Positions 2,533 through 62,800 of a stretch of DNA of 64,000 nt are shown one piece after another; within the stretch, counting starts at the first letter, position 1; every line of letters starts with the position of its first letter. Origin of the DNA: Aphrocallistes beatrix. Lineage: Eukaryota > Porifera > Hexactinellida > Sceptrulophora > Aphrocallistidae. Position numbers and translations under genes: made by a program. The stretch spans positions 620,001 through 684,000 of the forward strand of contig OY725498.1 in NCBI GenBank assembly GCA_963281255.1. Reading direction: 5' to 3'. The notes under the pieces are model-generated. The model searched no databases and was not told the origin of the DNA. It saw only the letters and a program-made list of their open reading frames with translations.

Positions 2533-4140
2533 ATGGCATTTTTCAAGAAACCAAATATTTTAAACGATAAAAAAACAGTGAGAGAGCAAAACTTTGATCG
2601 GACCTTTATTTTATTCGGAAAAGGTTCCACTGGTAAAAGTACTCTAGGAAACTTGCTTTTGGGAGGTAAACCTTTCAAAGAACACAAAGTGACTGAAGGA
2701 TTCGGGCTTACAAAGAAGGTCCAGTCAGCTGATTGCAAGATTGATGCAGCAAAAGTATACGATTTTTGTGAAATGAATTGCGAAATTGATAACAAACTAA
2801 AGATCCAAGTACTTGATCAGCCGGGATCAAATGATCACGATTTTACTCAAGAACAATACTGCACTTTTCTAAAACAATGCATTGCAGAGGCTAAAGCTGA
2901 AATGTCTGCCTCTTTTCTTATTCTTATCAGCCTCAATTCAAGACATTTTACTGCAAAAGAACTGCTAACGATTCTGAATTTAGCAGAAATTCTATCTGAT
3001 AGTGCGTATAGCTTTTTTCCAAATGCCATTGTAGTGTTCACACAAGCAGACAATGTTGTTCCGGATATGAATCAAGATAGACTTGAAGAGGTACTTCAAG
3101 CTAAATTGAAAACAGAAGAATATGGAAGCGTCCAAGATTTAATAGAATTTGTGGGTGGGAGGTATATTTTCGTAAATGCAGGAGATACAAGGGCAAGTAA
3201 CAGAATTAATATTTTAAAGACACTTTTTCAGCTAATCAGACCTCATTTAAACCTGTATATTCACGGAAATAACGCATTTAAAGGAAATGAATTGAAAGTT
3301 TTATTGGGAGAAAATGAGAAAACTAAAAGTTTCGGAAGGAAATTGCTTAAGTATGATGTAGAGTATCATTTTAAATTCGACTTAAATCTGTTTAAAAAAT
3401 CAGAAGTGAAGGAAATTGAAGAAAAGGTTGTAAATGCACTGAAAAATCTGAGTAGTTTTAACAATGGAATATCAACAATCGTGTTATTGATTAATTTCGA
3501 AGAGCTTTTCAACATTGAAATGTACGATCTTATCGTCAATACTCCTAAAGCGTACAATCTTGATGAAGCATTCAATGCAAATTTCTGGAGCTATGCATGC
3601 ATCATGTTTCGTGTACCAGTCGATAGCGAAGAATTTGTGAGAAGGAATTTTGAGAGTAATAAGTTATTAGAATCATTGGCTCTGAAGGTTAATCACAGAT
3701 ACGCTTGGATTACAGAGAGCATATCTCCTGAGGAATGTTCTAGAAAATTAACTGACTTGGCTAGGAAAGTCAAGCAAGATACAGAAGGGAAATCCTACAC
3801 TGATAGAGTTGTGTTAGAGGAGATGAGCAGGATGATTGATGGATCTGCTAAACTTAGAAAAGGTAGGAATAAGGAACAAATGGGTGCTGGAATACAAAAT
3901 TCAGACATACGTAGAGAGGTCCCAGTCTTTCAGGGAGGGCCAAACGATAGAGTGCTAGTGAATTCTAACAATTTTTTCTGGGATAAAGAATCAATATCGC
4001 CTCAAATCGGTTATTACATCCTGAAGAATCTGAGTCCTGACCTTGCTGAAGAATTCAGGAAGAAATATCCCTATGAAGGGAAGAAAATTCCCACAGAAGA
4101 ATACTCAGCTTTTTGTCTTCAAGAAATGAAGAAATTCTGA
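2533..4140 (+). CDS. A1: AIG1/GIMAP-like GTPase with C-terminal pseudo-GTPase domain
   Basis: Single-exon gene, 535 residues from the ATG at 2533. The open frame extends 12 bases upstream only through a TTG, and the paralogue at 55099 also starts MAFF. Domains: an AIG1-type G domain at about residues 22-235 with P-loop GKGSTGKS (29-36), G3 DQPG (95-98), T-Q-A-D (170-173) as the base-recognition motif and the GGRYIFVN strand. A second G-like domain follows at about 238-420, where the P-loop position reads GNNAFKGNE and cannot bind phosphate normally. The C-terminal module (about 455-535) contains SPQIGYYILKNLSPD. No signal peptide or membrane segment is seen. The family binds GTP and often oligomerises on membranes; the role here is inferred. 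It forms a duplicated pair with A2, matching A5+A6. Confidence 0.92.
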   Translation: MAFFKKPNILNDKKTVREQNFDRTFILFGKGSTGKSTLGNLLLGGKPFKEHKVTEGFGLTKKVQSADCKIDAAKVYDFCEMNCEIDNKLKIQVLDQPGSNDHDFTQEQYCTFLKQCIAEAKAEMSASFLILISLNSRHFTAKELLTILNLAEILSDSAYSFFPNAIVVFTQADNVVPDMNQDRLEEVLQAKLKTEEYGSVQDLIEFVGGRYIFVNAGDTRASNRINILKTLFQLIRPHLNLYIHGNNAFKGNELKVLLGENEKTKSFGRKLLKYDVEYHFKFDLNLFKKSEVKEIEEKVVNALKNLSSFNNGISTIVLLINFEELFNIEMYDLIVNTPKAYNLDEAFNANFWSYACIMFRVPVDSEEFVRRNFESNKLLESLALKVNHRYAWITESISPEECSRKLTDLARKVKQDTEGKSYTDRVVLEEMSRMIDGSAKLRKGRNKEQMGAGIQNSDIRREVPVFQGGPNDRVLVNSNNFFWDKESISPQIGYYILKNLSPDLAEEFRKKYPYEGKKIPTEEYSAFCLQEMKKF

Positions 4141-4820
4141 GTATTTCATAAGTGTTAATTAAGCTTTAGATCATCTAGGCTTTACTGTATTTACAGTAGA
4201 CTAACTATCCATCAAGTTTTGTATTCAGATATATACAAATATCTGACATTTTATATTTATACCTAATTGCTGTTAGCTATCTTAAATCGTATTTAGATCA
4301 TCATGAAAGAAAGATACTTCATTTATCTAATCAAAATTGTGGTGTTCCTTTGTACCTGTAATAATCCATTGTATTGAATCATTGCAAGTTTTTGATAATA
4401 TTCCAAATTTTACTATAGTATAAACAATATCTGTTTTAAAATTAGTATCATCGTCCAAGATAATCCTCAAATTCATCAATCCAATCGATGTTTTTCTAAA
4501 ATGATTTTGAAAAGTCTTCAATACTATATTTACAAACGAATCAGGTACACAGTAAGTTCTTTTTTTGACTCCTCAATTACTAGGTTACAGGTTGAGATTA
4601 TTGATGAGTTCTCTTTTTAATGTTTTGGATCCTCCTGTTTACATAATTAAATAAATTGCGCCCTGGTCAAGGAAATATTCAATTAGAATTTAAATTCTAA
4701 AATTAAATGCCATCTGGGGCTGTAAACTCAATTTTTCAATAAAAAAATGAGCTTAACAATTGTTGAATCTTTATGTTAGGATAGTTCCCATATTTTATAA
4801 AGGAATTCTAATAGCAAAGC
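4141..4820. other. A1-A2 intergenic spacer, duplicated at 27.6-28.7 kb and 38.3-39.7 kb
   Basis: Non-coding. Its start matches the sequence after A5 (27640 on), and 4415-4500 matches 39641-39725 closely. The two related spacers carry transposon insertions (a 184-bp element at 27957 and a mariner at 38659) that are absent here, so this copy shows the uninterrupted state. Confidence 0.6.
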
Positions 4821-6383
4821 ATGGCAAAACTTATGAGTAGATCTGGAACAGTTAAAGTCAGAGATTGTGATCGAACCTTCATCTTATTCGGAAAGAGCAA
4901 CAGCGGAAAGAGTGCCTTAGGGAATTTATTATTGGGATCACACGCCACGACACATTTCAGTACTCATCCACTACATGAACCATCAGGACACACTAAGAAG
5001 ATGCAGTCAGGAGAATCTGAGATAGATGCTAAGATAGTGTATGGAGAAGGATATACTGGACATAATAGAGTGAAGATCCAGGTCATAGACCAACCTGGTT
5101 GTAATGATAACGATCACGCTATATTCTCAAACCAATGCCTCGAAATGTCAAAATCAAAAAGAAAGACTACATTCCTGATCGTCATTAACCTCACTTCAAG
5201 GTATTTCTCTCAAGACGAGTTCCTATCAGTAATGAGAATGGCCGAAATTCTCTCAGAAAACAAACATTGCTTCTTCTCGAATGCGATTATAGTATCTACC
5301 CATGCTGACATACTCGACAAACATCTGAGGAAGGATAAACTGAAAGAAATCGTCCATCAGAAGTTACAGCAAGAAGACTTCGGTTACATCCAGGCGCTGT
5401 TGGATCTAGTGGAACACAGGTACATGTTCGTAAACGCAGTGAATAATGGGGAAGTGAACAGGGGTGACACCTTGGAAGAACTCTTTCAGTTAACCAAACC
5501 CACTTTGAACGTGTGTATTGATGGGAATACAGGATTTATTGGGCGTGATCTCAAACTATTACTAGGGAATGAACCTACTATTAACAATACACCTATCTAT
5601 GATGTAGAATATCATTTTAATCCAGAACTTAATCCGATTACACGAGATGACATCAAGCTTATGAAAGGGAAAATTGCTCATGCACTCGACAAGCTAGACA
5701 AGATCAGTAACGGAATATCTGCAATCGTGATACTGATTAACCTAGAAGAGAATTTCAGAGAAGAAATATACAATCACATCCTCAATCTTCCTGATGCATA
5801 CAGCCTTGGTGATAAGTCAAAGCAGCATTTCTGGGACTTTGCTTGCATCGTATTTAAAGTTGGAACCGACAGTAAGGACTACGTCAGACGAGAGATTGAT
5901 GTTAACCTTCGACTCAAGAATCTTGACAAATTGGTTCAGTCAAGATACTGTTGGATTACAGACAGGACATCTCCAGAAGAATGCAATGAGAGGTTAGGGA
6001 ACCTGGTTAATGAGGTTACCTCGTACAATCATTGGAAGACATTCACTGATAGCACTGTAGTGACAGAGATGAGGGATAGTATACAGGAATGGTTCACTCT
6101 CAAACATTCAAATGATGTAAGAATACAGCCTGGAGTGCAATCGGCAAATGCATCCACAGATGGAGCTATGTCCTGTGACATTCTTTCACTTAAAAACGAG
6201 CTGCTCTCTATCAATCACAGATTCTGGGGTAAAGAGAACACCCAGATATCTGCACTAATCGGCTATTTCATTTGGAAAAATATTGATACAGCAATAGCTA
6301 AAAGATGGAGGAAGTATCCCATTTATCAAATTGCTAAGGAAGATTGCATATATTTCTTCCTTAAACCGTTTAAGACAATTTGA
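4821..6383 (+). CDS. A2: AIG1/GIMAP-like GTPase with C-terminal pseudo-GTPase domain
   Basis: Single-exon gene, 520 residues. Start chosen at the ATG at 4821, ten bases after 'atag', the same spacing as in A6. Domains: AIG1 G domain at about 14-225 with P-loop GKSNSGKS (24-31), DQPG (90-93) and THAD (160-163). The second G-like domain starts at about 229, where the P-loop position reads GNTGFIGRD. The C-terminal module contains ALIGYFIWKNID near residue 490. A2 is almost identical to A6 (28671); A6 differs mainly by a few extra residues after the pseudo P-loop (NIRKDTA). Cytosolic by sequence, with no lipidation or membrane signal seen. Function beyond GTP binding is inferred from the family. 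Confidence 0.92.
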   Translation: MAKLMSRSGTVKVRDCDRTFILFGKSNSGKSALGNLLLGSHATTHFSTHPLHEPSGHTKKMQSGESEIDAKIVYGEGYTGHNRVKIQVIDQPGCNDNDHAIFSNQCLEMSKSKRKTTFLIVINLTSRYFSQDEFLSVMRMAEILSENKHCFFSNAIIVSTHADILDKHLRKDKLKEIVHQKLQQEDFGYIQALLDLVEHRYMFVNAVNNGEVNRGDTLEELFQLTKPTLNVCIDGNTGFIGRDLKLLLGNEPTINNTPIYDVEYHFNPELNPITRDDIKLMKGKIAHALDKLDKISNGISAIVILINLEENFREEIYNHILNLPDAYSLGDKSKQHFWDFACIVFKVGTDSKDYVRREIDVNLRLKNLDKLVQSRYCWITDRTSPEECNERLGNLVNEVTSYNHWKTFTDSTVVTEMRDSIQEWFTLKHSNDVRIQPGVQSANASTDGAMSCDILSLKNELLSINHRFWGKENTQISALIGYFIWKNIDTAIAKRWRKYPIYQIAKEDCIYFFLKPFKTI

Positions 6384-7411: not shown

Positions 7412-10400
7412 ATGGCTACATGTGTGGTCGAAGATAGAGAGCCAACATACAGAATAACCATACATGGCAACAACAAATTCAAATCAGCTCATCTTTTGGA
7501 TCAAATAAATCAGGACGAAAATATCAATACTGAAATGGAAAAATTCGAATTACTCTTATTCTCAGACTTAAACTTGAACAGAACATCCTCTCAAGTTGAA
7601 CCCAGCGAAGAGATGTTAGAGTTAATAGAACAATCAGAACATAGCCTAGAAGTATCGGCTGTTTTAGTGCTCATCAGCTGTACAGAGATATTCAGTGAAG
7701 GAATGCACAAATTAATATTGAAGCTACCTTACAACAAATTCTACGGATTCAATCAAAAGAATGAGAAAGAGTGTTGGAAACATGTCATAGTGGTATTCAC
7801 ATTTGGAAATATTGAAGGTGAGCTAGAATCTAAAGCGGAACAAACAATCTCTAAAAACGGTGGAGTGAAAGATATTGTGAAAAAAGCTGGGAATAGGTAC
7901 ATTTGTATGTCGAATAAGATCTCATTGCATGAACTAATAAAGATGCTAGTGGAGAAGATACAACCATTATATGGAAAATTGATTGTAGGAGAACACTATT
8001 TAGCTAGGTAAGTTTATTTATTGAGATAATTTTTTAAATAACTTTTCAAGTTTATGGAGGAGAGTTTATATACTACATTCACTACTATTATACACAGTAA
8101 CCTAAATCTTTGAATTCGCTTAGATAGAATGTCAGCCTCTCTTTTACCTTCCTAATGAATTCTTAGCAGATATTACACTGATTGACTACTTAAAATATCA
8201 ATATTCTGCTTTGGTTACAGAAATAACATTGAATATGACTAATTCAGATTGGTTAGATCTCAAGAAAAAGTCAATTCATCATTATCTGAGCAAAAAGATG
8301 TCATACAAACCAAAGAGGAAGAAAACATTGGGATAAAGCGAAGATTCATTATAATGGGAGAGAGAAACAGCGGAAAAAGTACTCTAGGAAATCTGCTGTT
8401 AGAACCACGTGAATCACAACCTTTTGATACTGCTTGGTACACTAAGCCATCAGTAAAAGCAACAGATATGCAAGTGGGTGAGGTTGGGATATGTAAGATG
8501 TTTGCAGGCGAAAAGAGATGTACTTGGTTTTCAAATGAAAAATTGAGGATAGAAGTAGTAGACGATCCTAATTGTACCAAACCAGAGAAACAAAAACAGT
8601 TTTTAGAAAAATGTGTCGATAAAAGAGGAAATCCCGAGCGATAACCTTTCCAATTCTTATTAATTCAAATTTCTGTTCTTTCTCAGAAGAAGAATTTAAA
8701 AATATCAAGGATGCTGAACAAATCTTATCAAAGTTAAAATTTGAACTCTTTACAAACGCCATTGTAGTCTTCACACACGTGGACGAACTTGTTCTATATT
8801 CAAAAGAAACTCCTGAACAAATACTAAATAATAAGTTACAACAAAAAGAGTCTTTTTACATAAAAAGATTGATCGATTTAGCACATCAAAGACATATATT
8901 CATAAACACAATGAACTTCAGCAGAATAAATAGAAATGAGATCCTAGACAAACTCTTTGAATTTGATAATTGGGATAATGACTTTGGTGTGAAGATAATC
9001 GATAAAGTTAGAGACCTGAACACTTCCTATAATACACCAATCAGGATATTTTCAGATATCACAGAAGATGAACGTAAAGAGAAAATCTATCAAGAAGATC
9101 TAAAGCTTGGAAAAAAATTGCTGGAAGACATTGAGGAAGATAAAGACATTGATTCCTACAAATGCATCGTTTTAAAAAGGAAGGAAACACATTATGAAGA
9201 TCTGATACAATTTACTCCTCCTCCGACACCCGAGGATTGCACAGGTCAACAAGACCAAAAAGATCTTAAAGAGCTAAGATCTAGCACCGCAGACAAGATT
9301 GATGTTAGGCAAATAACTGAAGCACTCAAAGAACTGAGTACTACTAGTAAGATACCCATCACGATATTTTCAGATGAAACAGAAGAGGAATGTAAGAAGA
9401 AAATCTACCAAAAAATCCTTGAACTCTCAGAAGCACTCCTGAAAGGTCCGCCGATGCAAGATGATCATAACGATTCCTGGACTTTCACATGCATTGTCTT
9501 TACAAAAAGCAACAAAAATAAAGAACCTGAGATTCCAAAAAATCCTAAAAATAGACAAGGTTTGAACACTTCCTATAGTACACCATTTTCAGATAACACA
9601 GAAAATCAACATATGGGAATCTACCGAGGATTAAGACAGTCTAGAGAAGCAACACCTCTTCCAAATCAAATTAAACATTTCAATGAACTTGAAATAAAAG
9701 TTTCAACGCCAAGAATAGCTGATGGAGACAAGTCTTCTATTCCGGAGAAGGATATTGGAAAAGAAATAGTTGACACACTTAGGGAACTGAGTATTGAAAT
9801 AAACACACCGATCATAATAATACTGATACGAATAAGAGACAATTTCGATGAAGAAATCTACACTCACATTCTCAGGTGGATGAAAAATGATAATACAAGT
9901 TTGATAGCAGATAAACAACTTCGTTCTCCGGAGTTTGTGGGCTTGGTATTTGAATTATCTTTCAAAAATGGAAACATTTTCAAAGATAAAATGATCGAAA
10001 ATCAATTTTTGAGAGATTTAGTTGAAAAAGTGAATCACAGATATGCATATATTACAGAAGAAATGTCAGCGAGCGAATGTTCTAGAATTTTGAAGAATCT
10101 TATAAGGACAAAGTTTCAAAATGAAACAACTGAGATTCTTAACACAAAAGGCATCCAAAAATCGAAACAGAGCAATTGCAACAGAATCACAGCTAAAAAA
10201 CAAGATGGTATAACCACAAATAAAAATGTCACGGGATTGAGTAACTGGACTAATGTACCAAATAAAAAGATTCCTTCGAATTTGGAAGATGCAGAGCCAA
10301 TGATTATTCTCCATAGCAGCATGGTGTTTGCAAATAAGAAATCAAAAGTCTCTTTATTCAGCTACTTTACCCTTGATAAGATGAGTTCAACTGAAACAGA

Positions 10401-10443
10401 TTGGAATGATGATCAAGACTCAGATCCACAATTCAATTATTGA
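7412..10443 (+). pseudogene. B1: three-part AIG1-like protein gene with one frameshift
   Basis: Exon 1 is 7412-8007 and exon 2 is 8257-10443 (GT-AG intron, phase 2; an alternative acceptor at 8247 would add three codons). Exon 1 encodes a P-loop-less G domain with the signature ISCTEIFSEGM. Exon 2 has P-loop GERNSGKS, then DDPN where G3 is expected. The frame breaks between about 8620 and 8641: the first frame stops at 8642, and homologous coding (Thr-Phe-Pro-Ile strand, then VFTHVDEL) continues in the next frame from 8641. Removing the break gives one long protein whose C-terminal half contains repeated copies of the degenerate domain core and ends with an LFSYFTLDKM module. The 3' part stays open for over 1.6 kb, so the frameshift is either recent or an assembly error. 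Confidence 0.75.
8008..8256 (+). other. B1 intron 1 (phase 2)
   Basis: Donor gtaagt at 8008 and acceptor ttag at 8253-8256. Joining AG with ATCTCAAG gives Arg-Ser-Gln, which aligns with the Trp-Tyr-Gln and Gly-Tyr-Gln junctions of B2 and B5. Confidence 0.7.
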
Positions 10444-12383
10444 GATGTAAGAAAAGAACTATGCACTAATTAATGTAAATGGATCTGTTAATTTGCTACT
10501 TGAAACTTTATTGAATTCCTTGATGATAATCATACCTCCTGTAGTAAATCTATAAGATCATTTTATGATAACTATACTAGCGTTATGTTATAAAGGAATT
10601 AGTACTTATACAGTTATCATCGCTATCATCGATAATTAGCAGATTTAAACCAATGACTTAATATTAAAAGCCAAGAATCTCCCAGAAATTCAAAATGTAT
10701 CCCCAAAACGCTCAAATCCCTCACTGACAACCACTGAGATCGTTGTGGTCATAATTGTATAGTACTACCGATGATCTCCGTCTAAGTAATTCCATGTGTG
10801 TAATCTAATTTTAGGTTTAATATAGCAACATGCTAGATTGGAGTGTAAACCAATTTTTTGACCCTTGATTCAAATTTTAAAACTTAACAGCGTTAACCTA
10901 TCACGCAACAAAATGATCACCAATATAATCCTTCTAGTGGAAACTTGGCTTTTTGTGCAACGCTTTGGAAATTGAGACTAGCGTACTAACTACCTCGAGT
11001 TGCTAGTTACTATATTGAAACACGCTATGATATCTGATCACCTCATGGCTTGAGAAGGAACATAACTTTAGGAGACTAAATATAATGTAATTCGACACAT
11101 ATATTCAGTAGGCATTGATTTTTCTAAATATTCTCAGGGAAGCTACAACTTTAGTTTCCTAAAATAGGTATAGATCAAACTCTAAAACTCTCGTCCACAT
11201 ACAATCTGGTCCATAACATACATAACAATTTAAATACTGTCAACTCCTGGTAGAATGTGAATATTGATTTAAGAATAAGTGGAGTTGCAATTTGAATTAA
11301 TAATAAAATAACCCCAAATCATTTTATATTATACGTAAAGCGATATTTCGTTATATGTGACTTGGATGTTTAGTCATATAGCAGATCTTTAATTAAGCTT
11401 TACATCTGATTATAGAGTGATCTGTACAAAGCTTTATAGTAGCATTAAACTCTAATACATATCAAGTTGGAATTGAATTCGGGTTTTTGGGTCGAGTTTG
11501 GGGTGGGCCCAAATCAAATCAGGCCTCTACAGGAAATGTAGACAGTGTGTACATTTCACTACCAACACTTGTTTTAATGAATTAAAATTCAGTCTCTAGC
11601 TATGGACCAATATATTATAATAGATAGAATATAGTCGATTTTAAGCTCATTAACCCCGGATGGCTTGGGTTTTTTCTATTTATAGAAAATAACCTAAATT
11701 TGTATGGCTTCCCGCCTAAAATTTCTTAAACCGGAAATGACGCGACACATTCCAGGGGCAACGGGGGGTATATAATTATAATTATTAAGAGATTCGGGAG
11801 TTGATTCTGACAAGTTAATCCAATCCAACTCTGGACTATACGACTGAGTAAAATTGTGGTCTGACTAACTTATTTTTTAAAATTTGTAACATTGTTCCTT
11901 ATTAAATATGAAAAGTTAAAATTTATGAAAAGATAATACCACAATTAGTTGCTACACATCTTTAAGATGCATTATCCCCACTAATTAGAAATGTTCTCAA
12001 CGTCCCAATAGAGGTTCACAAATCCACGCGATCAATTTCTGTTTTATAAAATTAAAAAGTTAACAAGAGAAATTTCATACATTAATAATATGGGTTCTGA
12101 TTAGCGAATACAATTCGACTAGTTTTGTGAGAATATGTGAATACCTTGCAATGTTCCACCAATTTACATCTCTACTATGATTTACTGTAACTTGTTTCAA
12201 AGTAAAGTTTACTTTTCTAACGAATGATCAAGTTCTCTTATTAGCCATAATTCTATCAATAAGGATGTCCTGCTAAAAGAATAAGAAAAATTGTACATAC
12301 CTAGTATGATAAGAATAGATTCTTTCATTTATTTACATTTCCAATTTTTTTCAAATACTATGGCGTTAGCATTCAGTCTAGTA
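10444..12383. other. B1-B2 intergenic region with a block shared with 18.85 and 25.33 kb
   Basis: No gene seen. The stretch 10960-11340 matches 18850-19098 and 25340-25690: all three contain a 'tatctgatcac(c/t)tcat' box followed by a 'cagtaggcattgatt'-like box, in the same order. This is either a duplicated upstream block or a conserved control region. Confidence 0.6.
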
Positions 12384-15300
12384 ATGGCTACATATAATGG
12401 AACTGTAGAACGAAAACCTCGAATAATCTTACACGGCAATCAAAGCTTTGAATCTTCTCAACTTTTGGAGCTGCTAGCACCAGATCATCGAAAGAATCAA
12501 GTTTGCAAGACAGAAAGTTTTGAATTCTTTCCATTCTTAGACTTAAGCACAAGCAGAAAGATTCCACTCTTCAAACCTAACTCTGAGATGTTAACGCTAA
12601 TTGAACAGTCTTCACAACGAGGCATAGAGATATCAGCTATTTTAGTACTGATCAGTCTAACCGAAATATTCAGCGAAGGAATGCATGGATTGATACAGAA
12701 GTTGCCTTTCAATGGATTCTATGGATTTGACGAATCAGATGAGAAGGAATGGTGGTCTCATGTAATAGTTGTGTTTTTATTTGAAACGAATGATAAAAGA
12801 AACAATAGTCAAGTGAAAAAGTCGATTGATGAAAACGGAGGAATCAGAGATATAGTTCAAAGAGTTGGAGAGAGATACTTTTGGGTATCAAAGCAAACTA
12901 CACCTGAAGAACTGACTGAAAGGTTAAACTGCAAGATGTCAAGCGTGAAAAGAAAATTAATTGTTGGAGAAACTCATTCTGATTGGTAAGTTGATACCTA
13001 AGTAAAACCCGTTTATAAGAATTTAAATTCAGATATAATATTTCAAAAGTTGTAGATCATTCGTGCATTCTCTTGGATGAAAAATTGAGTTTACATAAGA
13101 ATGTAAATTTGATATTCCAAAAGTTTCTATTTAACTGAAAGTCATTTATATGTTTGATCCTTGTTAGGTATCAAAAGATGATACAATCTTTTCGAAAAAC
13201 ATTGAAATGTTCATCCCAAACGAGAGTAAAAGACCTCTATCAAAGATTTGTTCTGATTGGAGGGAGAAAGAGCGGTAAGAGTACTCTAGGGAACCTATTG
13301 ATGGGACCTCGTGATGCATCATTGTTTGGAACAGAGTGGTACTATAAACCATCCGGAAAAGGGAAAATGTTTCAGTTAGGAGAGGTTGAGATAGATTCTA
13401 GATGGATATCTGGAGATGAACATAAAGAGATGAACAAAAAGAGCAATGTATTGAAAATACAAGTCTTGGATGAGCCAGTAAATCTAAAACCGAAACAATA
13501 TGGTGAATTTTTGGGAAAATGTGTAAGCGAATTTCAAAAAACTACCTTTCTTATCACTGTTAATCTAAATAATGAAACTCCGATGTCTAAAGAAGATTTT
13601 AGCAAAATAATAGACATCTCCAAGCAAGAAACTCACCAAATTTTGAATGGATTATTACAGAAGGATAACTATTCGCATGTCAAGGATTTGATGGAGTTGG
13701 TGGATCACAAATATTTCCCTGTAAATGGCATGGACTTTAGTGAAAGAAATAGACATGAAACCATAAAGTGGCTATTTGGGATCATTTTGGGTAAGAATCG
13801 ACCAAAATCTGTTATTTCAACTCATCATCAATTAGATTCCAAGGAAATGAAAATGAAAAATAGTAAAAATATTAGATCCAATTGGGAAATATTAGAAAAT
13901 AAAGATTTTAATTCACATACCAAAGAGAGTACAGATGAAAAGAAACCAGTCATGAAAAGTACCAAACTTCAACAGAGTAAGTTCTAATTATTGCTATAGT
14001 AATACTCTTTATAACAATTCCGTTCCATGTTTTAGTAACTATTTAGTTATATCAAACCGAATTTCTTAGTTTTCGCCGATAATAGTGATAAATTGTGAAT
14101 TTCAGTGCAAGCGGATACGAATTTTAGCAGAAATTAGTAACTATGGAGTATTTCGAAATTTCATGAGCTACGCGAATATCATTTATAAATTCGTTGAGAA
14201 GAGAAAAAATGGGGCAACTGTTACATAATGATATTCAATCATGTATCCACAGGCTATTGTTAGTTAATTGGCGCCATTTATGGATAAATGGGATAGAACT
14301 TTTGAAAAAAATAAAAATGAAGTGGCGAGTGAGCTCTTAAAGTTCTTCATATCTGTAACCTATTAACAGGTTCACTCGAAAGGTTTTCATCAATTCCTTC
14401 TTTTGAAGCAAATCCAGAGATAACACAAATATATCAAAGAAATGTACCAGCAATATCTGAAAGGCACAGAGTAGATAGAAATATTTTAGCTGAGCAGAGT
14501 GATGTTAAACGAGAAGAGTGGAAACAGAGAAACTGTAGTGAAGAAGCGACTAAAGATGAAATGATAGATCGTAAGAATGGAAAATCCCAGATAGAAGCAG
14601 AAAAAGAAAATTCCACAAAATTTCAAGCTTTAAAAAAGTAAGTTATCATTGTAACTCCAATAATTTATATTAAGATATTTTACTTTATAAATCTAAAATG
14701 TTTATAATATATTATTTTAGCAATAAAAAGCAGGATAACTTTATTGCACACTAATAAATATTCCAAACTATTCATTTCATTTAATAGTTATCGAGACATT
14801 GCTAGCATTATACACAAGTCACTAAATTGTACACAAGCTGAAAACGAAGAACTCCATCATCTTCTGTTCAGTTTAAATAATACTGAAATTGAGATGTTAG
14901 AAGTACTCAGAGAAGTGAGCAGGATGGGTAGAACCAGGGCAAGAGTCGTGGTGATCAACTTAGAAGAAATGCAGACTGAAGAGATCTATCTTAAATTATC
15001 ATATCTTTCAGAGAAAAAAGATTTAAACAATTGCACAGTCATCGCTTTCAAAGTACAGCATGGGAAAGAAAAATGTATTCACGAAAAAATTCCAGGAAAA
15101 TTTAATCGTTTGGTTGAAGGTGCTTGTTCAAGATATATATTTCTGACTGAGCCAAACAGAAAATTTGAGAAGAAGCAGAAGCTATCATCTGATCAGCAGC
15201 TACAAACATCTATCTATAGCAACGCAAATAGCGAAGGGGATAGAAATGAGGAATTAAAGGAAAAAATCGACAAAAAAGAAACTTCAGAATGCGACCAAAC

Positions 15301-15436
15301 TTTGGATTCAAGGGTATTCCTTTCCCACAATTCAGTATTTAGGTCCAATGAAACCAATAAACTGCTGTTCAGTTACTTTCTTTTGGATAAAATACCTGAT
15401 CATGAAGATATCACAGGTAATTCAGGTCCACAGTAA
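12384..15436 (+). CDS. B2: pseudo-GTPase / P-loop GTPase / pseudo-GTPase protein, four exons
   Basis: Predicted exons 12384-12985, 13168-13976, 14370-14637 and 14788-15436. All introns are GT-AG, and the joined frame is open for 775 residues. The start is the ATG giving MATYNG, as in B1 and B4; an in-frame ATG at 12360 is possible. Exon 1 encodes the P-loop-less domain (GNQSFESSQ at the P-loop position; SLTEIFSEGM). Exon 2 has P-loop GGRKSGKS and a degenerate G3 (DEPV). Compared with B5 it lacks about 30 residues covering the strand with the T-H-x-D motif, so guanine recognition should be lost. Exon 3 is a charged linker. Exon 4 holds a second degenerate G-like segment and the LLFSYFLLDKI module. 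An alternative acceptor at about 14720 would truncate the protein early. Confidence 0.78.
12986..13167 (+). other. B2 intron 1 (phase 2)
   Basis: Donor gtaagt after GATTG, acceptor ttgttag before GTATCAAAAG. The joined codons read Asp-Trp-Tyr-Gln. It marks the boundary between the N-terminal pseudo-GTPase and the P-loop domain. Confidence 0.8.
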
Positions 15437-16157: not shown

Positions 16158-16949
16158 ATGGCAGTAAGGATCATAACTCATGGAAACAACGGATTTCGAT
16201 CTTCTCAACTTTTGAATAAAATACCAGCTTCTGAAGGAAATAAAGTCTATGCAACGGAGGAATTCGTGCTTTTCCCGTTTTCAGATTTAGATCTAAACAG
16301 AAGATTCCCACTCTTCTATCCAAATCCTGAGATAGACGCACCATTCAATCCAGAGGAAGATGTCATTTTAGTTCTAATCAGTCTAACAGAGATATTTAGT
16401 GAAGGAATGCACAGTTTGATTAGAAAAATACCTCACAACCAATTCTATGGATTCAATGAGGCAAATGTGAAGAAATGGTGGAAACGTGTGATAGTAGTAT
16501 TCTCCTTCGGACAGTATGGAGGAGAAGATGGAAGAGTTAGGGAGATGATTGCAAGAAACCGAGGGATAAAAGAAATAGTTGAAAAAGCTGGTAACAGGCA
16601 TATCCATGTGTCAGATAATACAACTCCAGAAGAGTTTGTCCATAGGTTGAGGGATATTGTAGCTACAAGTAAAATGAAGAAATTTAAAATTGTTAAGGAT
16701 CGAGCAAAAAAGGCAGAAACACAAGTGCTGTTAGGGCAGCAGCCTCGTCACAAGCCACGACTAAGACTAAGATGTCAGAAGATAGAGATAATTCTAGTCA
16801 CCGCTATGATACTAATGGTCATACTATTCATTTTGATCACAACACCATTTCTCACAGTCATTATATGCACAACTACAAAGCCCAGTGATGATACCTCATT
16901 TTGCTACGCGCTAAAGATTCTGAAACCAACGGCTTCTTCTTCAAATTGA
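16158..16949 (+). CDS. T1: P-loop-less AIG1-like domain with C-terminal membrane segment
   Basis: 263 residues from the ATG at 16158, directly after 'tctcagc'; the longer frame upstream starts only with TTG. The single G-like domain has GNNGFRSSQ in place of a P-loop, then the family signature ISLTEIFSEGM, an FYGF motif and IVVFSFG, ending near residue 180. A basic stretch (KPRLRLR) precedes a hydrophobic segment of about 29 residues (about 209-237), followed by a 26-residue polar tail. This fits tail-anchored insertion like some vertebrate GIMAPs, with the domain facing the cytosol. It equals exon 1 of the B genes plus an anchor. It is probably unable to bind GTP in the usual way. Confidence 0.85.
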   Translation: MAVRIITHGNNGFRSSQLLNKIPASEGNKVYATEEFVLFPFSDLDLNRRFPLFYPNPEIDAPFNPEEDVILVLISLTEIFSEGMHSLIRKIPHNQFYGFNEANVKKWWKRVIVVFSFGQYGGEDGRVREMIARNRGIKEIVEKAGNRHIHVSDNTTPEEFVHRLRDIVATSKMKKFKIVKDRAKKAETQVLLGQQPRHKPRLRLRCQKIEIILVTAMILMVILFILITTPFLTVIICTTTKPSDDTSFCYALKILKPTASSSN

Positions 16950-20630: not shown

Positions 20631-22241
20631 ATGGCTTCTTTCAATTCATTATTTAGAAAACCAAAAAAGGCTACTATTCAATCAAAAGAAGAAAGAAATT
20701 TTGACAGAAGTTTTATATTAATTGGAAACGGGGGGGGTAGTGGTAAAAGCACTCTAGGTAACTTGCTCTTGGGATGTAAACTTTTTAAAGAACACAAGAT
20801 GCCTGAAGCATATGGACATACATGCAAAATTCATTCTGGAGATTGTAGTATTGAATCATGTGAAGTTTATGATTCTGATGAATTTCCAAATGAAATGTTA
20901 AATTTCCAAGTCCTCGATCAACCTGGATTAAATGATCAAAATTTTACTCAAGAAAATTATTGTAATTTTCTGAAGGAATGCATCGCAGAGATAAAAGCTG
21001 AAATGTCTGCGTCTTTTCTTATTTTTATCAACCTAAATTCACATTTTTTTACCTCAGAAGAGCTGTTAACGATTCTGAATTTAGCTGAAATTCTATCTGA
21101 CAGTGGCTATAGTTTTTTTACAAATGCCATTGTAATGTTCACACATGCAGATGAAGTTGTTCCTGATATGAATCAAGATAGACTTGGAGAGAAACTTCAA
21201 GCTAAATTGAAAACAGAAAATTATGGAAGCGTCCAAGACTTAATAGATTTGGTGGATGGGAGGTATATTTTTGTGAACGGGAGAGATACAAGTTCAATTA
21301 ACAGAAAAAATATTTTAAAGACACTTTTTCAGCTAACCAGACCTAATTTAAACCTGTACATTCTCGGAAATAACGCATTTAAAGGAAACGAATTAAGAGC
21401 GTTATTCGGAGAAAACGAAGAAACCAGAAGTCTAGCAAGAAGATTACTTAAGTATGATGTAGAGTATCATTTCATTCCTGACTTAAATCTTTTCAGAAAA
21501 TTTGAAAAAAGGGATTTGGAAGAATATACTATCGATGCACTAAATAAACTAAGCGGAATCAGTAAAGGAATATCAGCCATGGTTCTATTGATAAGTCTTG
21601 AAGAATTGTTCAATGAAAATATGTACAATCTTATCTTGAATCTCCCTAAAACCTACAATCTTGGAAAAGAGCAGAAAAAGGATTTTTGGGACTATGCATG
21701 CATCGTGTTTAAACTGCCAGCTGATTCGGAAGATGATGCGAAGCGAAATATTGAAAATAACAGCCTACTAAGAAAACTAAGCATAAAGATAAATTATAAG
21801 TATACTTGGGTAACAAATAGGACATCTCCTGATGAATGTTCTAGAAAATTAACTGACTTAGCTAGGCGAGTCAAGCAAGATACAGAAGGGAAATCCTACA
21901 CTGATAGCGTCGTGTTAGAGGGAATGACCAAGTTGATTGAGGGATCTACTAAACTTAAAAATAGCAAGAATAAGGAACAGATGGGTGCTGGAATAAAAAA
22001 TTCAGAAATACGTAAAGAAGTCCCGTTCTATCAAGGAGGGCCAAACGATAGAGTGCTAGTGAAAGCTAACAAGTTTTTCTGGGATAAAGAATCAATATCG
22101 CCCCAAATCGGACATTACATCCTGAAGAATCTGAGTCCTGACCTTGCTGAAGAATTCCGGAAGAAATATTCCTATGAAGGAAAGAAAATTCCTACAGAGG
22201 AATACTCAGTATTTTGCCTTCAAGAATTGAAGAAAATGTGA
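20631..22241 (+). CDS. A3: AIG1/GIMAP-like GTPase with C-terminal pseudo-GTPase domain
   Basis: Single exon, 536 residues, ATG at 20631. The leader ('ttgtagtgacaagaat') matches that of A5. Domains: AIG1 G domain (about 24-235) with DQPG (96-99) and THAD (171-174). The P-loop reads GNGGGSGKS, one residue longer than the normal GxxxxGKS spacing, because of a run of eight G bases at about 20730-20737. The second G-like domain (about 240-425; GNNAFKGNE at the P-loop position) and the C-terminal module (SPQIGHYILKNLSPD) are intact. The extra glycine could weaken nucleotide binding, or the G run may be miscounted. AATAAA at 22340-22345 is a likely polyadenylation signal. Confidence 0.9.
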   Translation: MASFNSLFRKPKKATIQSKEERNFDRSFILIGNGGGSGKSTLGNLLLGCKLFKEHKMPEAYGHTCKIHSGDCSIESCEVYDSDEFPNEMLNFQVLDQPGLNDQNFTQENYCNFLKECIAEIKAEMSASFLIFINLNSHFFTSEELLTILNLAEILSDSGYSFFTNAIVMFTHADEVVPDMNQDRLGEKLQAKLKTENYGSVQDLIDLVDGRYIFVNGRDTSSINRKNILKTLFQLTRPNLNLYILGNNAFKGNELRALFGENEETRSLARRLLKYDVEYHFIPDLNLFRKFEKRDLEEYTIDALNKLSGISKGISAMVLLISLEELFNENMYNLILNLPKTYNLGKEQKKDFWDYACIVFKLPADSEDDAKRNIENNSLLRKLSIKINYKYTWVTNRTSPDECSRKLTDLARRVKQDTEGKSYTDSVVLEGMTKLIEGSTKLKNSKNKEQMGAGIKNSEIRKEVPFYQGGPNDRVLVKANKFFWDKESISPQIGHYILKNLSPDLAEEFRKKYSYEGKKIPTEEYSVFCLQELKKM

Positions 22242-31575: not shown

Positions 31576-31620
31576 AGAATCAAGCGTTCAATCTCAAATA
31601 TCAATTCATTGACTAGATTT

Positions 31621-55098: not shown

Positions 55099-56694
55099 AT
55101 GGCTTTTTTCAGAAGTTCATTCTTTGGAGGAGTCACAGCCGCAAGAGAACGAAATTTCGATCGCTCTTTTATTTTATTCGGAAAAGGATCTAGTGGTAAA
55201 AGTACGCTAAGTAACTTGCTAATGGCTAACAAACTTTTCGAAGTACATGAATTTCCACAAGCATATGGACTCACAAAAAAGGTTCAATGGGATACTTGTA
55301 AAATCGAGGCAGATCAAATATACGATCTTAAAGGCGAAAATACTGAAATGCTAAATATCCAAGTATTCGATCAACCTGGATCAAATGATCATGATTTTAC
55401 TCAAGAAAAACACGGTCATTTTCTCAAAGAATGTATTGCAGCAACTAAGGCTGAAATGGCTGCATCTTTACTGATACTTATCAACCTTAGCTCAAAATTT
55501 TTCAATACAGAAGAACTACTCACTTTACTTAATTTGTCTGAAATTTTGTCTATCAGCGGTTATAATTTTTTTACAAATGCCATCGTAGTCTTCACACATG
55601 CAGACGAAATTGTTCCGGAAATGAATCAAGATACACTCCAAGAAAAACTTAAAACAAAATTAGAAACAGAAAACTTTGAATGTGTCCAAGAGTTATTAGA
55701 TCTAGTAGAAAACAGATACACATTCATAAATGGAATTGAAAAAAGTGATAGAAACAGAATTGAGATTCTGAGGATACTCTTCCAGTTAACAAGACCAAAA
55801 TTAAAAGTATACATTAATGGGAACAACGGATTTCAAGGTGACGAGTTAAAAGAATTATTAAAAGAAAATATACTATCTGATAACTTTGAAAAGAAATTAC
55901 TTAAATATGATGTAGAATATCATTTTAATCCAGATCTTAATCTTTTTAAGAGACTTGAAAAAAAGACTTTGGGAGAAAAAATAACCAATGCTTTGGATAA
56001 ACTTAGCGGAATCAGTAAGGGAATATCGGCCATGGTTCTATTGATAAGTCTTGAAGAAGTTTTCAATGAAAATATGTACAATCTTATCTTGAATCTTCCT
56101 AAAACTTACAATCTTGGAGAAGAGTTTAAAAAGGATTTCTGGGACTATGCATGCATCGTGTTCTACGCACCTGTTGATAAGAAAGAATGCATAACAAGTA
56201 ATATTGCGCATAATCGACTATTAAAAATGATCGATGCTAAAGTCACTTCTAGGTACACTTGGGTAACGTGTAGAACATCTGCAGAAGAATGTTCTACAAG
56301 ATTGACTAACTTGATCAAGAGAGTTAAACAAGACACAGAAGGAAAATCCTATACTGATAGCGTTGTCCTAGCAGAAATGAATCAGATGATCAAGGGAGCA
56401 GGTAAGCTTAGAGAAAAACGAGGCAAAACACAAATGGGAATTGAGCTCAAAGATAAAGAGTTACGTGAAGCGGTTCCATTCTATCAATTAAAACCAAACT
56501 CGAAGGTGTTGGTGAATAGCAATAATTTTTTTTGGGAAAAGGAATCTATTTCACCACAAATTGGTCACTTCATTTTAAAGAATATAAATTCCGATATAGC
56601 AGAAGATTTTAGAAAAAAATACCCGGATAAAGAGAAGAGAATTCCAACTGAAGAATATTCAGAATTTTGCCTTAAGGCAATGAAAAAGATATGA
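55099..56694 (+). CDS. A9: AIG1/GIMAP-like GTPase with C-terminal pseudo-GTPase domain
   Basis: Single exon, 531 residues, ATG at 55099. G domain: P-loop GKGSSGKS (28-35), FDQPG, THAD, then ENRYTFING. The pseudo-GTPase domain starts at about 235 (GNNGFQGDE) and keeps the core ISLEEVFNENMYNLIL and the FWDYACIVF strand. A helical, Lys/Glu-rich segment follows (about 400-460), then the C-terminal module with SPQIGHFILKNINSD. All motifs are intact, and this is the cleanest representative of the A architecture here. Closest relatives in the window are A1, A3 and A5. Cytosolic by sequence. Confidence 0.93.
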   Translation: MAFFRSSFFGGVTAARERNFDRSFILFGKGSSGKSTLSNLLMANKLFEVHEFPQAYGLTKKVQWDTCKIEADQIYDLKGENTEMLNIQVFDQPGSNDHDFTQEKHGHFLKECIAATKAEMAASLLILINLSSKFFNTEELLTLLNLSEILSISGYNFFTNAIVVFTHADEIVPEMNQDTLQEKLKTKLETENFECVQELLDLVENRYTFINGIEKSDRNRIEILRILFQLTRPKLKVYINGNNGFQGDELKELLKENILSDNFEKKLLKYDVEYHFNPDLNLFKRLEKKTLGEKITNALDKLSGISKGISAMVLLISLEEVFNENMYNLILNLPKTYNLGEEFKKDFWDYACIVFYAPVDKKECITSNIAHNRLLKMIDAKVTSRYTWVTCRTSAEECSTRLTNLIKRVKQDTEGKSYTDSVVLAEMNQMIKGAGKLREKRGKTQMGIELKDKELREAVPFYQLKPNSKVLVNSNNFFWEKESISPQIGHFILKNINSDIAEDFRKKYPDKEKRIPTEEYSEFCLKAMKKI

Positions 56695-57663: not shown

Positions 57664-60372
57664 ATGGCTGCAAGTGAGGCTGATACAGAACAAAAACGCC
57701 GAATCATCATACATGGTAATATAGGTTTTGAATCTTCTCAATTTTTGAAGCTGTTACCAAAATATGAAAAAACTTATTCCCACGAGATCAAAGAAGAATT
57801 TGAATTTTTTCCATCCTCAGACTTAAACCCAAATAAAAAAATCCAACCTTCCAAACCTAACTCAGAGATGGTAATGCTAATCGAACAATCTGCTCAAGGA
57901 GTAGAGGTATCAGCTATCTTAGTACTCATCAGTCAAACGGAGATATTCAGTGATGGAATGCATAAAATTATACAAAAATTACCATACGACAATTTCTATG
58001 GATTTGATAAATCGAATGAAAAAGAGTGGTGGTCTCATGTGATAGTGGTATTTTTATTTGAGAAGGATAGTAGTAAAAACGATAATCAAGTAGCAATGTC
58101 GATTAAGAATAACAGAGGCATCAAAGATATTGTTAAAAAAGCTGGAGATAGGCATTTTTGGATTTCAAACCAGACCAAATCTGAAGAACTAATAGAAAAG
58201 TTAACTAACAGCATGTTGATCTTGAATGGGAAATTAGCTATAGGCGAAACTCATTCTGAAGGGTAAGTCAATTTCTAACATTAATAATATCCCTTTATAA
58301 TTTTAGAGATATCTCTTCAATTTCTAAGTATTTTCTAAGGAGGGGCTGTGCTTCTGGCCTTGAACAAGGTTTTTATAAAATCCAATAGATTTTTTTCTTC
58401 CATACATGCCAACTTAAGGCATGATAAAGCGGGACGCGGCGTTAAATTTCGTGGGGTATTGCTGGATACAATAGAAATATTATTTTACATGTAATCAAAA
58501 TAATGGGACATAATAGGGAAATTTCATGCAAAACGCTACACTCGTGAAAATTAAATCAATAGAAGAGTCAAAATGAGACGTTTGTCAGATGAACAATTCT
58601 CAATTATGCCATATTCAAGAACGAATTATGCTAGAATATGTTAGATTATTAGTTATATTTTAAAATGTTAAAATAATGCCAGACTATGCTAGTTTTTGAC
58701 GGATTATGCTCGAATTATGCTAGCCATGATCTAATTAGACTCCTAGTCTAGCTAGTCTGGCAACACAATCCCTCTTCACTTCGCGTCGATTGTATTCCTA
58801 ATTATAATTAAGAGGTTACATAAATCAAGTAAAATTTAAATAATTTTCTTAGGTATCAAGAATTGGCACAATCCTTTCAAAAAAAATTCCCTGAATCCTC
58901 TGTAGTGGGTACAGGGGAAAATCTTGATCAAAGATTCATTCTGATTGGAGAGAGCAAAAGTGGAAAAAGTAGCCTAGGTAACTTGCTAATGGGACCTCGT
59001 GATAGACCACTGTTTGACACGGAATGGTACTATAACCCATCCGGAAAAGAGAAAAGACATCTAGTAGGTTTTGCTGAGATAGAAATTGAACGCATATATC
59101 CAAATAAATGGAAGGGAGATAGTCCATTAAAAATACAAATTGTAGATGGGCCAGACAGTTTAAGACCTAAGCAATATGGTGAAGTTTTGGCAGATAGTAT
59201 CCCAGAATTGAAAAGAACTACTTTTTTAATTCTCATTAATCTAAGTTCAGGGTCACTCTCTCATCAAGAATTTACTAGAATTACAGACGTCTCCAGGATT
59301 TTCTCTTCTCATAAATTGGATTTATTTTCGATGAGCATGATAGTGTTTACTCATGTTGACGAACTAATTGAGAACAATGAAGATCCAGAACAAATTTTGA
59401 GAAAATTGTTGCTCAAAGAATCCTATTTGCATGTCCGTGACCTGATAAGTTTAGTGAACCACAGATATATATGGGTAAATGGAGTGGATTTAAATTTGGA
59501 AAATAGACATGAAGTCCTGAGAAAACTATTTCAGGTTTTTACATCTGAAACTCAGAATGATAAATCGAAAAATTATAGCAAAACAGTTAAGGATAGGCAA
59601 CTAAATGGGACTGCCTTGGAATCCAGGATGACTACTCAGGAAAGGAATTCTACTAAATTCCCAATTTTAAGCAAGTGAGTTCTGATTCTTGTTACTATTA
59701 AGCAAAGTTGATAAAATGTCTAAATTTTCAATTATTTCGATTGTTTAAATGATAAAATATTTAGAGAAAACCTATCTAAAATTATTTAATTACAAAAGTA
59801 AAAAAATTATTTTTTTATTCGTTAGTTATCAAGACATGGCCAACGCATTGCAAAAGTTGTTTAATCGTGATCAAGTTAGAAACACAGAGCCCTGTCAGCA
59901 GTTCAGCTTAAACGATATTGAGATTGAGATGAGAGAGGTTCTCAAAGTATTGAGGAGGATCGGTAGCACTAAAGTGAGAGTAATCATGATCAACTTTGAA
60001 GAAAAGCGAACTCAAGAAATCTACGATAAATTATTGTATATCTTTAAAAACGAAGATTTCTGGATGCACGCACTGATTGCTTTTAAGGAACAGTTAGAGG
60101 AAAAATATTGTAGCATGGAAGAAATCCCAAAAAGATTTGAGGTTTTAGTTAAAAAAGTTAATTCGAGATACATATATCTCATCGATAGAAAGTTGAACAA
60201 TGACACTGAGAAGGATAAATCTCCATTAAATCAAGTGAGAGCAAAATCAACACACCCTGACGGAAAGGAAGGAGATGCAAAGGTATTTCTCTCTCACAAT
60301 GTAATATTCAGTTATAATGAGCCGCATGAAATACTATTCAGTTATTTTATCTTGGATGAGATAGCTGATTAA
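57664..60372 (+). CDS. B5: pseudo-GTPase / P-loop GTPase / pseudo-GTPase protein, three exons
   Basis: Exons 57664-58262, 58853-59674 and 59826-60372; both introns phase 2, GT-AG; 655 residues. Exon 1: GNIGFESSQ at the P-loop position, SQTEIFSDGM, FYGF, IVVFLFE. Exon 2: P-loop GESKSGKS, DGPD instead of DxxG, an intact VFTHVDEL motif and RYIWVNGVD. Exon 3: a degenerate G-like half (VIMINFEEKRTQEIYDKLL, RYIYLIDRK) and the final FSYFILDEIAD module. It is the best-preserved B gene and the reference for exon limits in the others. AATAAA at 60526-60531. The protein probably binds nucleotide in the middle domain but with an altered switch II. Confidence 0.85.
58263..58852 (+). other. B5 intron 1 (phase 2)
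   Basis: Donor gtaagt, acceptor tttcttag before GTATCAAG; joined codons Glu-Gly-Tyr-Gln. Carries 'aaagcgggac'-type sequence shared with B4 intron 1. Confidence 0.82.
59675..59825 (+). other. B5 intron 2 (phase 2)
   Basis: Donor gtgagt, acceptor ttcgttag before TTATCAAGACATG; matches the last intron of B2 and the acceptor at 63746. Confidence 0.8.
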
Positions 60373-61234: not shown

Positions 61235-62800
61235 ATGTTTAAACGTCAAGTTAGAATTGAAACAGTCAAAGATTGTGATAGAACCTTCATCCTATTCGGA
61301 AAGAGCAACAGCGGAAAGAGTGCCTTGGGGAACTTATTATTGGGACCTCACGCCACGACACATTTCAGCATCCACCCACTACCTGAGTCATCAGGACACA
61401 CTAAGAAGACGCAGTCAGGAGAAGCTGAGATAGATGCTACACTTGCGTATGGGGAGTGCTATACTGGAAGCAACACAATGAAGATCCAAGTTATAGACCA
61501 GCCTGGCTGTAATGACAACGATTACTTCTCATTCTCAAATCAATGCCTCGAAGAGGCCAGAACTGAAAAGAACATTACTTGTCTCATAGTTATCAACCTC
61601 TTTGCTAAATTTTTCTCCGAAGACGAGTTCTTAACAATCATGAAAATTACGGAGATTCTCTCTGAAAATCGATACTGCGTCTTTTCTAATGCGATTTTAG
61701 TTTTCACTCATGCGGACATGATTGACAAGAACTTGAAGAACGAAAAATTGGAAGAAAAAATTCATGAAAATTTACAAAAAGAAAACTATGGATACATCCG
61801 TGAGCTGTTGACTGTGCTTGGAGACAGGTATATTTTTGTGAATGCAGTGAACTATAGTGGAACAAACAGACATAACGTTCTAAAGAAAATATGTCAACAA
61901 TCAAAGTCTAACTTGACTGTACAGATTAACGAGAATCATAGCTTCAAAGGAGACGAGTTGAAGTTATTATTAGGAGGAGAGGCTGGTGCTAGCATCATCA
62001 AAGAAACTGCACCTGAATGTGACATACAATATTGTTTTAGTTCAAATTTCAAAATGATCGAAAGAAATGACGACTTAAATAGCTTTACAAATGGAATGAC
62101 TAATGCACTCAACAAACTAAGTTGCATTAGTAACGGAATATCAGCAATCGCAATACTAATTAACTTGGAAGAGATGTTCAATGAAGAGATCTACAATCAC
62201 ATCATCAACCTCCCGAACACATACAACCTTGGAGACAAGTTGAAGCATAATTTCTGGGAATACGCGTGCATTGTGTTTAAGGCTCGAATGGACAGTAAGG
62301 ACTTCGTGAGAAGACAGATCGAGGCTAATCCCAAACTGAAGAGTCTAGACAGAATGGTACAGTCGAGATACTGCTGGATCACCAGCAGGAGTATCCCAGA
62401 GGAATGCTATGAGAGGTTAGGGAACTTGGTCAAGGAGGTTACCTCGTACAATAAACTGAAGATATACACTGATAGCAATGTAGTCACAGAGATGAGAGAT
62501 ACAATGCAAGAGAGTTTTATGAACAGATATTCAAATGATAGAGAGACTCCTCCAGAAATAGAAAGGGAAGAGCTACTACCAGAAGGGAGATTGTGCCAGC
62601 CCCTTTCACCTCGAAATGCTCTACTCTCCATCAATAACAGATTCTGGATTACAGAGCACACAGGTATATCTACACTAATCGGGTACTTTATTTGGAAAAA
62701 CATAAATGCTGACATCGCTAAACAGTTCAAGATACGATACCCAGAAGCTGTTAGAATATCTGCCGATGCCTTTATAGATTTTTGGTTAGAATTTAAGTAA
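61235..62800 (+). CDS. A10: AIG1/GIMAP-like GTPase with C-terminal pseudo-GTPase domain
   Basis: Single exon, 521 residues, ATG at 61235 (MFKRQVR). G domain: P-loop GKSNSGKS (22-29), DQPG and THAD. The pseudo-GTPase domain from about 226 has ENHSFKGDE at the P-loop position and INLEEMFNEEIYNHII. The C-terminal module has TLIGYFIWKNIN. Groups with A2, A6 and A8 by the HATTHFS and GHTKK segments, but its N-terminus is basic rather than lipidated, and it starts three bases after an 'ag', unlike its relatives. No defects seen. Confidence 0.92.
   Translation: MFKRQVRIETVKDCDRTFILFGKSNSGKSALGNLLLGPHATTHFSIHPLPESSGHTKKTQSGEAEIDATLAYGECYTGSNTMKIQVIDQPGCNDNDYFSFSNQCLEEARTEKNITCLIVINLFAKFFSEDEFLTIMKITEILSENRYCVFSNAILVFTHADMIDKNLKNEKLEEKIHENLQKENYGYIRELLTVLGDRYIFVNAVNYSGTNRHNVLKKICQQSKSNLTVQINENHSFKGDELKLLLGGEAGASIIKETAPECDIQYCFSSNFKMIERNDDLNSFTNGMTNALNKLSCISNGISAIAILINLEEMFNEEIYNHIINLPNTYNLGDKLKHNFWEYACIVFKARMDSKDFVRRQIEANPKLKSLDRMVQSRYCWITSRSIPEECYERLGNLVKEVTSYNKLKIYTDSNVVTEMRDTMQESFMNRYSNDRETPPEIEREELLPEGRLCQPLSPRNALLSINNRFWITEHTGISTLIGYFIWKNINADIAKQFKIRYPEAVRISADAFIDFWLEFK

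Follow-up and report, generated by a model that had tools for sequence, protein, structure and literature searches.

A tandem AIG1/GIMAP-like gene array with a conserved, motif-less pseudo domain in the glass sponge Aphrocallistes beatrix

Introduction

Glass sponges branch early among animals, and one of them, Aphrocallistes beatrix, carries a dense tandem array of AIG1/GIMAP-type GTPase genes on contig OY725498.1 (C12 below). Here we analyse 64,000 nucleotides of that array, C12:620001-684000, which we call the window. How AIG1/GIMAP proteins work is poorly known. The family has been tied to immunity in vertebrates, coral and plants, and three coral GIMAP genes respond to a bacterial wall product (PMC3723955). 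Some AIG genes of a snail respond to lipopolysaccharide (PMC7053062).

A tandem AIG1 array in a glass sponge is, as such, already known, because a block of this kind has been published for Aphrocallistes vastus, where scaffold 022 holds 50 tandem AIG1 genes, 38 of them with a single exon (PMC10282587, section 2.2). In Oopsacas minuta a single gene stands at the place of the A. vastus block and the expansion was not seen (PMC10282587). The account in section 2.2 is given without a pseudo domain, membrane-anchored copies or architectures, and the two arrays are compared here by description only. The AIG family of the snail Biomphalaria glabrata is alike in its tandem arrays, its dual AIG1 domains (in 8 genes) and its transmembrane members. 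The dual domains of the snail were, however, counted as complete AIG1; the part of that paper drawn on here mentions partial AIG genes, describes no conserved pseudo family and defines a GIMAP as AIG1 plus a coiled coil (PMC7053062).

The likeness to human GIMAP2 and GIMAP7 lies in the GIMAP-like predicted fold of the sponge pseudo domain. Another comparison is with p190RhoGAP pG1/pG2 and CENP-M, which are Ras-like, whereas the sponge pseudo domain is of AIG1 type; neither is known from a tandem family in which an active partner lies in cis. The plastid import receptors Toc33/34 and Toc159 differ from the sponge system in that both partners bind nucleotide. GIMAP2 is membrane-anchored and hydrolyses poorly. 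It also binds GTP (according to the title of PDB entry 2xtn), whereas the anchored partner of the sponge has neither G1 nor G4, and in the A proteins of the sponge an active and a pseudo domain are fused. GIMAP7 stimulates GIMAP2 by dimerising (PMC8066113). In titles and abstracts of the open literature we found nothing on a conserved pseudo-AIG1 partner domain, on its fusion behind an active domain or on an anchored form of it.

We tentatively propose, with a probability of about 45%, that the array encodes a two-module AIG1/GIMAP-type family in which the pseudo domain acts as a nucleotide-free partner of active G domains, in cis in one architecture (A) and at membranes in another (T). The modules, the loss of motifs, the constraint and the hydrophobic ends are read from the sequence itself. 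A family in which the active G domain and its conserved but inactive partner occur apart, in numerous natural copies and in both soluble and anchored forms, would make a pairing model testable by simple binding and GTPase assays. The array also adds detail to the large GIMAP-type repertoire of glass sponges.

Results

Hidden Markov models (HMMs) of six domains were built from the open reading frames (ORFs) of the window. D1, D2 and D3 are the three parts of the A proteins, NP is the pseudo domain with which B and T proteins begin, BP is the P-loop domain of B and BT is the last part of B. These were searched against six-frame ORFs of at least 30 amino acids from C12:500-744 kb, and gene models were made from ORFs and splice signals. 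Near-full copies were kept for motif counts (D1 22 of 34 hits, BP 11 of 15, D2 21 of 30, NP 24 of 27, D3 23 of 26, BT 3 of 9), a filter that excluded BP of B loci 1 and 2 in the window, both present as pieces.

By these models the window holds ten A, five B and two T loci and one B-tail fragment at 63730. A sequence-only reading of the same DNA had counted seventeen loci plus a fragment of a single GTPase family, in three architectures; the count agrees, and domain HMMs and Pfam AIG1 bear out both the family and the architectures. The loci, in window coordinates, are as follows.

2533..4140, +, A locus 1: active AIG1 domain (D1), pseudo domain (D2) and tail (D3), one exon
4821..6383, +, A locus 2: near copy of A locus 6 (28671)
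7412..10443, +, B locus 1: pseudo domain in exon 1, ending at 8007; P-loop in exon 2, beginning at 8257; frame interrupted near 8623-8641; pseudo-like tail
12360..15436, +, B locus 2: exon 1 ending at 12985; exon 2 beginning at 13168 (P-loop; G4 stretch missing; no Pfam match at E <= 0.1); last exon from 14787
16158..16949, +, T locus 1: pseudo domain and C-terminal hydrophobic segment
17673..18587, +, T locus 2: pseudo domain, proline-rich linker and C-terminal hydrophobic segment; modelled and matched to GIMAPs
20631..22241, +, A locus 3
22898..24539, +, A locus 4: reading frame interrupted in D2
26024..27639, +, A locus 5: reading frame interrupted in D1
28671..30248, +, A locus 6
31531..33201, +, A locus 7: in-frame stop; P-loop segment missing
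34029..35658, +, B locus 3: exon 1 ending at 34747; exon 2 beginning at 34920
36670..38244, +, A locus 8
39921..42605, -, B locus 4: exon 1 42605-42019, intron, exon 2 40854-39921
55099..56694, +, A locus 9
57664..60372, +, B locus 5: exon 1 ending at 58262; exon 2 58853 to about 59674; exon 3 beginning at 59826
61235..62800, +, A locus 10
63730..64000, past the window to 64078, +, B-tail fragment; a D1 fragment comes next, at 64190

The A loci are single exons. In all five B loci a GT-AG intron stands directly after the pseudo domain, at the same protein position, and the joined frame continues as expected. At this first exon border of B the modules meet. Both T loci of the window have a hydrophobic stretch of 19 residues near the C-terminus (mean Kyte-Doolittle value 3.1 and 3.75), a putative membrane anchor. 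Profile comparison placed D1 and BP in one family (E 3e-60) and D2 and NP in another (7e-31). It also linked BT with D2 (5e-11, from three BT sequences), BT against NP reaching only 0.006; the short end of BT resembles D3 (9e-4), and D3 against D1, D2, NP and BP gave 0.14-0.25. By these comparisons B looks like a pseudo module followed, across an intron, by an A-like unit. T looks like a pseudo module that ends in a hydrophobic anchor.

Pfam AIG1 (PF04548) matched 12 places in the window, all above the curated cut-off, namely all ten A loci and two of the five B loci. Genome-wide it gave 91 matches, 31 of them in the C12 array. The specificity of this model is low: it also matched 12 of the 14 prokaryotes used as controls, eight of them above the cut-off, so an AIG1 match alone is no proof of family. 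In the A proteins scanned AIG1 outscored the other GTPase models listed, and while a missing match in the N-terminal domain of A had been named as a refutation, D1 is over the cut-off in every A locus of the window. A search of PDB sequences with A returned GIMAP4 (8e-7) and GIMAP5 (0.009). Among near-full array copies of D1, G1 (GxxxxGKS) is present in 21 of 22, and G3 (DxPG) and G4 (T[HQ]xD) in all 22. Judged by position, a box-like motif between G3 and G4 and, for G5/IAN, an RYxF[VI]N-like motif stand where expected, in a region that aligns with GIMAP4. D1 of the A proteins looks like a working GTPase domain with intact motifs.

The P-loop domain of B is more degenerate than its name suggests. 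A G1-like motif is found in 10 of 11 near-full copies and DxPG in one, and a PDB sequence search with BP yielded nothing but GTPases of other kinds and chains unrelated to them, none better than E 0.003. The description of B as a pseudo domain followed by a P-loop domain stands as an architecture, but that second domain is itself decayed.

The pseudo domain has lost the nucleotide motifs. In the 45 near-full copies of D2 and NP taken together, G1 and G4 are absent throughout and a DxxG-like string occurs once. By itself it scores below the Pfam AIG1 cut-off. Five of the seven NP members in the window match AIG1 at E <= 0.1 (best 2e-5), with a top score of 24.4 bits where the cut-off is 27; one excised D2 had no AIG1 match at E <= 0.1. 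Among PDB sequences the best match of the NP profile had E 1.1, and the 11 matches listed include no GTPase. Structure prediction for the pseudo domain of T locus 2 gave a GIMAP-like fold that matches GIMAP2 (PDB 3p1j, 2xtm, 2xtn, 2xtp, 2xto) and GIMAP7 (3zjc). The pseudo domain would then be an AIG1/GIMAP fold without nucleotide motifs, of the class (i) pseudoGTPase type. This is the likeness to p190RhoGAP pG1/pG2 and CENP-M, which also have a GTPase fold without G motifs (PMC5593906).

In place of the G motifs the pseudo domain carries motifs of its own that are nearly invariant: HGN-x2-F-x-S, F-x-FSDLN, LVLIS-x-TEIFSEGM and RY-x3-S. With the outlier 91413 left out, the residues H15, G16, N17, D49, L82, L84, I85, S86, S92, I99, W118, V121, F125, N145 and R158 are invariant in 23 of 23 NP sequences (of 24 in all). 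Six of these (H15, G16, N17, D49, S86 and S92) fall within the former P-loop, switch and box stretch, and N145 and R158 lie outside it. The box of the pseudo domain carries a glutamate in 20 of 21 D2 and 21 of 24 NP copies; D1 has lysine or arginine there in 9 of 22. It is a guess that this glutamate meets the lysine or arginine of D1. Its presence speaks against a simple arginine finger supplied by the pseudo domain.

The ratio of nonsynonymous to synonymous substitution rates (dN/dS) was taken from pairs with dS 0.03-0.8. Median values are 0.24 for D1, 0.20 for D2, 0.30 for D3, 0.37 for NP and 0.46 for BP (12, 8, 18, 18 and 5 pairs), two of the five BP pairs repeating two others, as two copies are identical. 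Among the pairs listed, the best eight of each set, NP reaches 0.72. We also slid windows of 15 codons along alignments of two clades of A genes (A-I, 11 sequences and 552 columns; A-II, 7 sequences) and of NP (23 sequences), without the broken A copies and two outliers, 91413 in NP and 92800 in A. The lowest 15-codon window of A-I is KYDVEYHFKFDLNLF, in the pseudo domain, with an omega of 0.07, and it is the switch-like segment of that domain. In A-II the lowest is the P-loop (omega 0.04), and in NP it is ILVLISQTEIFSEGM (omega 0.17). Diversifying selection was sought in the five highest 15-codon windows each of A-I, A-II and NP by a parsimony test, which is blunt; none was significantly above neutral (smallest p 0.16). 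Given the low dN/dS and the constrained segments, the pseudo domain is under purifying selection and kept for something.

The A-II clade was recovered both in the D1/BP tree and in the pseudo-domain tree, with a support of 0.99 in each, and so A genes duplicate as units. The pseudo domains of T and B, drawn from the array at C12:532-714 kb, are intermixed in the tree, with several weak nodes. This hints that anchored and spliced forms may have arisen from each other more than once, the node support being mixed.

Discussion

AIG1, Toc and septin GTPases have been described with a G-interface or an R-finger (PMC11238149), and GIMAP7 pairs with GIMAP2 (PMC8066113); because of these two precedents we infer that pairing in the sponge family runs over the old nucleotide face. 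In this view the G domains of AIG1, Toc and septin proteins meet face to face across the nucleotide, and the pseudo domain could be a fixed, nucleotide-free partner for that pairing face. In the A proteins it would gate or stimulate GTP hydrolysis by D1 in cis. In the T proteins a pseudo module set in the membrane would recruit GTP-loaded A (perhaps B) proteins, and assembly there might then depend on GTP turnover, comparable to the action of GIMAP7 on GIMAP2. With more reserve we suggest that a glass-sponge lineage has a pseudo-GIMAP class, whose motifs were lost apparently once and which then became a separate conserved module with signature motifs of its own, fused behind an active domain, spliced ahead of a P-loop domain or anchored alone in a membrane, and pairing with active GIMAPs in cis and at membranes as pseudokinases do with kinases. 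A role in defence is likely for the cell by analogy with the family.

Two other explanations grant the pseudo domain a different part in the protein. It may have gained a new site for a small molecule or protein ligand at the old GTP pocket, making it a sensor and D1 the switch. This would account for a new, nearly invariant motif set where the G motifs once stood, parts of which are the most constrained segments of A-I and NP; the same residues could equally form a protein-docking face, though, and no ligand is known, so we hold this to be unlikely. We are just as doubtful that the pseudo domain is a passive fold that serves stability or spacing while D1 works alone. The nucleotide motifs are indeed gone, and class (i) pseudoGTPases are regarded as scaffolds or adaptors (PMC5593906), yet a mere spacer would hardly have its switch-like segment as the most constrained part of A-I, nor stand alone with an anchor as it does in T.

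The remaining explanations concern the locus as a whole. That it is a diversifying immune or self-recognition locus, whose copies differ in the target recognised, would fit a tandem array with recent duplications and broken copies, the higher dN/dS of NP and BP, the mixing of T and B pseudo domains over several weak nodes, and the induction of family members by immune challenge in coral and snail (PMC3723955, PMC7053062). Recognition by variable surfaces sits poorly with median dN/dS values well below 1 in all five domain sets, and the blunt parsimony test brought none of the highest segments significantly above neutral; we judge this improbable, slightly more so than the two ideas above. The same medians argue against the last explanation, which we consider the least probable of the four: that the region is unstable, its genes arise and die neutrally, and the array has no special role. 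What speaks for it are duplicated blocks of about 3 kb (87% and 93% identity), broken frames in at least four of the 17 window loci and the flanking ORFs of NHL type, which are likewise repeated.

Genomic context and further observations

The proposed partner family is strongly clustered in the genome (100.5 Mb in 28 contigs). It fills C12 from 532 to 714 kb and so extends well beyond the window on both sides. The A pseudo domain with its tail has at least 62 matches in the genome, at least 56 of them in the C12 array, and NP has at least 56, of which at least 51 are in the array; these are lower bounds, and some loci gave more than one match. Since 56 of 62 matches fall in 0.18% of the genome, the clustering is not by chance. 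The remainder lie on C1, with one on C18 for the query of A pseudo domain and tail. Other AIG1 groups, in ORFs on C7, C10, C15 and C16 (L001-L008), have a G3 of D-[CSF]-PG type. Because of that G3 and the near confinement of the pseudo family to C12, the array looks like a derived branch rather than the whole AIG1 family. No confirmed relative was found for D2 among bacterial, archaeal and viral contigs or for full A among viral contigs, as is expected of contigs from bacteria, archaea and viruses.

Within the array A locus 2 and the A locus at 28671 are close duplicates, 92.5% identical over 1711 nt. Three A loci are broken, with frameshifts at 22898/23895 and 26024/26584 and, at 31531/32002, a stop and the loss of the P-loop segment; exon 2 of B locus 1 is split between the ORFs 8243-8641 and 8623-10440. 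The frame breaks may be partly assembly errors. Among the long ORFs tested in the window, none contradicts the claim that no unrelated functional gene stands between the loci (genes of small exons lay outside the test). Between loci we find a 28S rRNA fragment, which is broken, and pieces of a retroelement of Ty3/gypsy type, and two further ORFs tested had no Pfam match. The claim fails in the wider array, which at window coordinates -78855 to -77620 contains a 412-aa ORF of the NHL kind.

This ORF belongs to a set of repeated ORFs of about 410 aa (for example L012:1616-2851) that flank the array on the left, at -105 to -89 kb, and, some kb off, on the right, at 103 to 110 kb (window coordinates); the one tested has NHL repeats. 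A repeated ORF beside them resembles COX5A. A B-type exon 2 ORF of 1281 aa lies near -64318 to -60476, in DNA that from about -63576 to -61143 consists of tandem repeats.

In the window the 28S rRNA fragment spans 44750-46151 (+; RF02543, 419 bits) and, judged by eye, is interrupted near 45315-45695 by an insert of some 380 bases that is rich in AT. The retroelement pieces, at 47670-49297 (-), match reverse transcriptase and aspartic protease in separate frames, with a local GC content of 45%. Two intergenic gaps hold simple repeats: a 72-base tandem repeat at 19602-19897 (4.1 copies, 97%) and about 60 copies of ACGTG at 6486-6789.

Elsewhere in the genome L003, L004 and L005 (C7:786-797 kb) are frames of about 790-800 aa with canonical AIG1, and in L003, the one scanned with Pfam, a Vint/Hint domain is present too. 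A hint/hedgehog domain has also been reported for an AIG of the snail (PMC7053062). Long ORFs at L030 (C20:1.06 Mb), L031 (C1:10.07 Mb) and L032 (C7:484 kb) have AIG1-like or MMR_HSR1 GTPase domains, one of them two, and apparently mark further clusters.

The mitochondrial contig was recognised by COX1 with Pfam, its other genes being named by eye from translations. TGA stands for tryptophan, AGA occurs at serine places and TGG is absent from the seven genes counted. There is an atp9-like ORF, the recognised genes are all on one strand and nad6 is one open frame. The mitochondrial DNA of A. vastus likewise has AGR as serine, atp9 and one coding strand, and its cox3 shifts at amino acid 140, with UGG followed by GGA in the +1 frame (PMC2267718). 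AGA at serine places, atp9 and a break in the cox3 frame agree with Hexactinellida, so that a placozoan origin was rejected. They give good support to a glass sponge near A. vastus but probably not of that species, as the contig measures 17,996 bp against 17,427 bp and nad6 is uninterrupted. In the A. beatrix cox3 a single TGG stands at codon 140, after which the +1 frame starting with GGA continues the protein.

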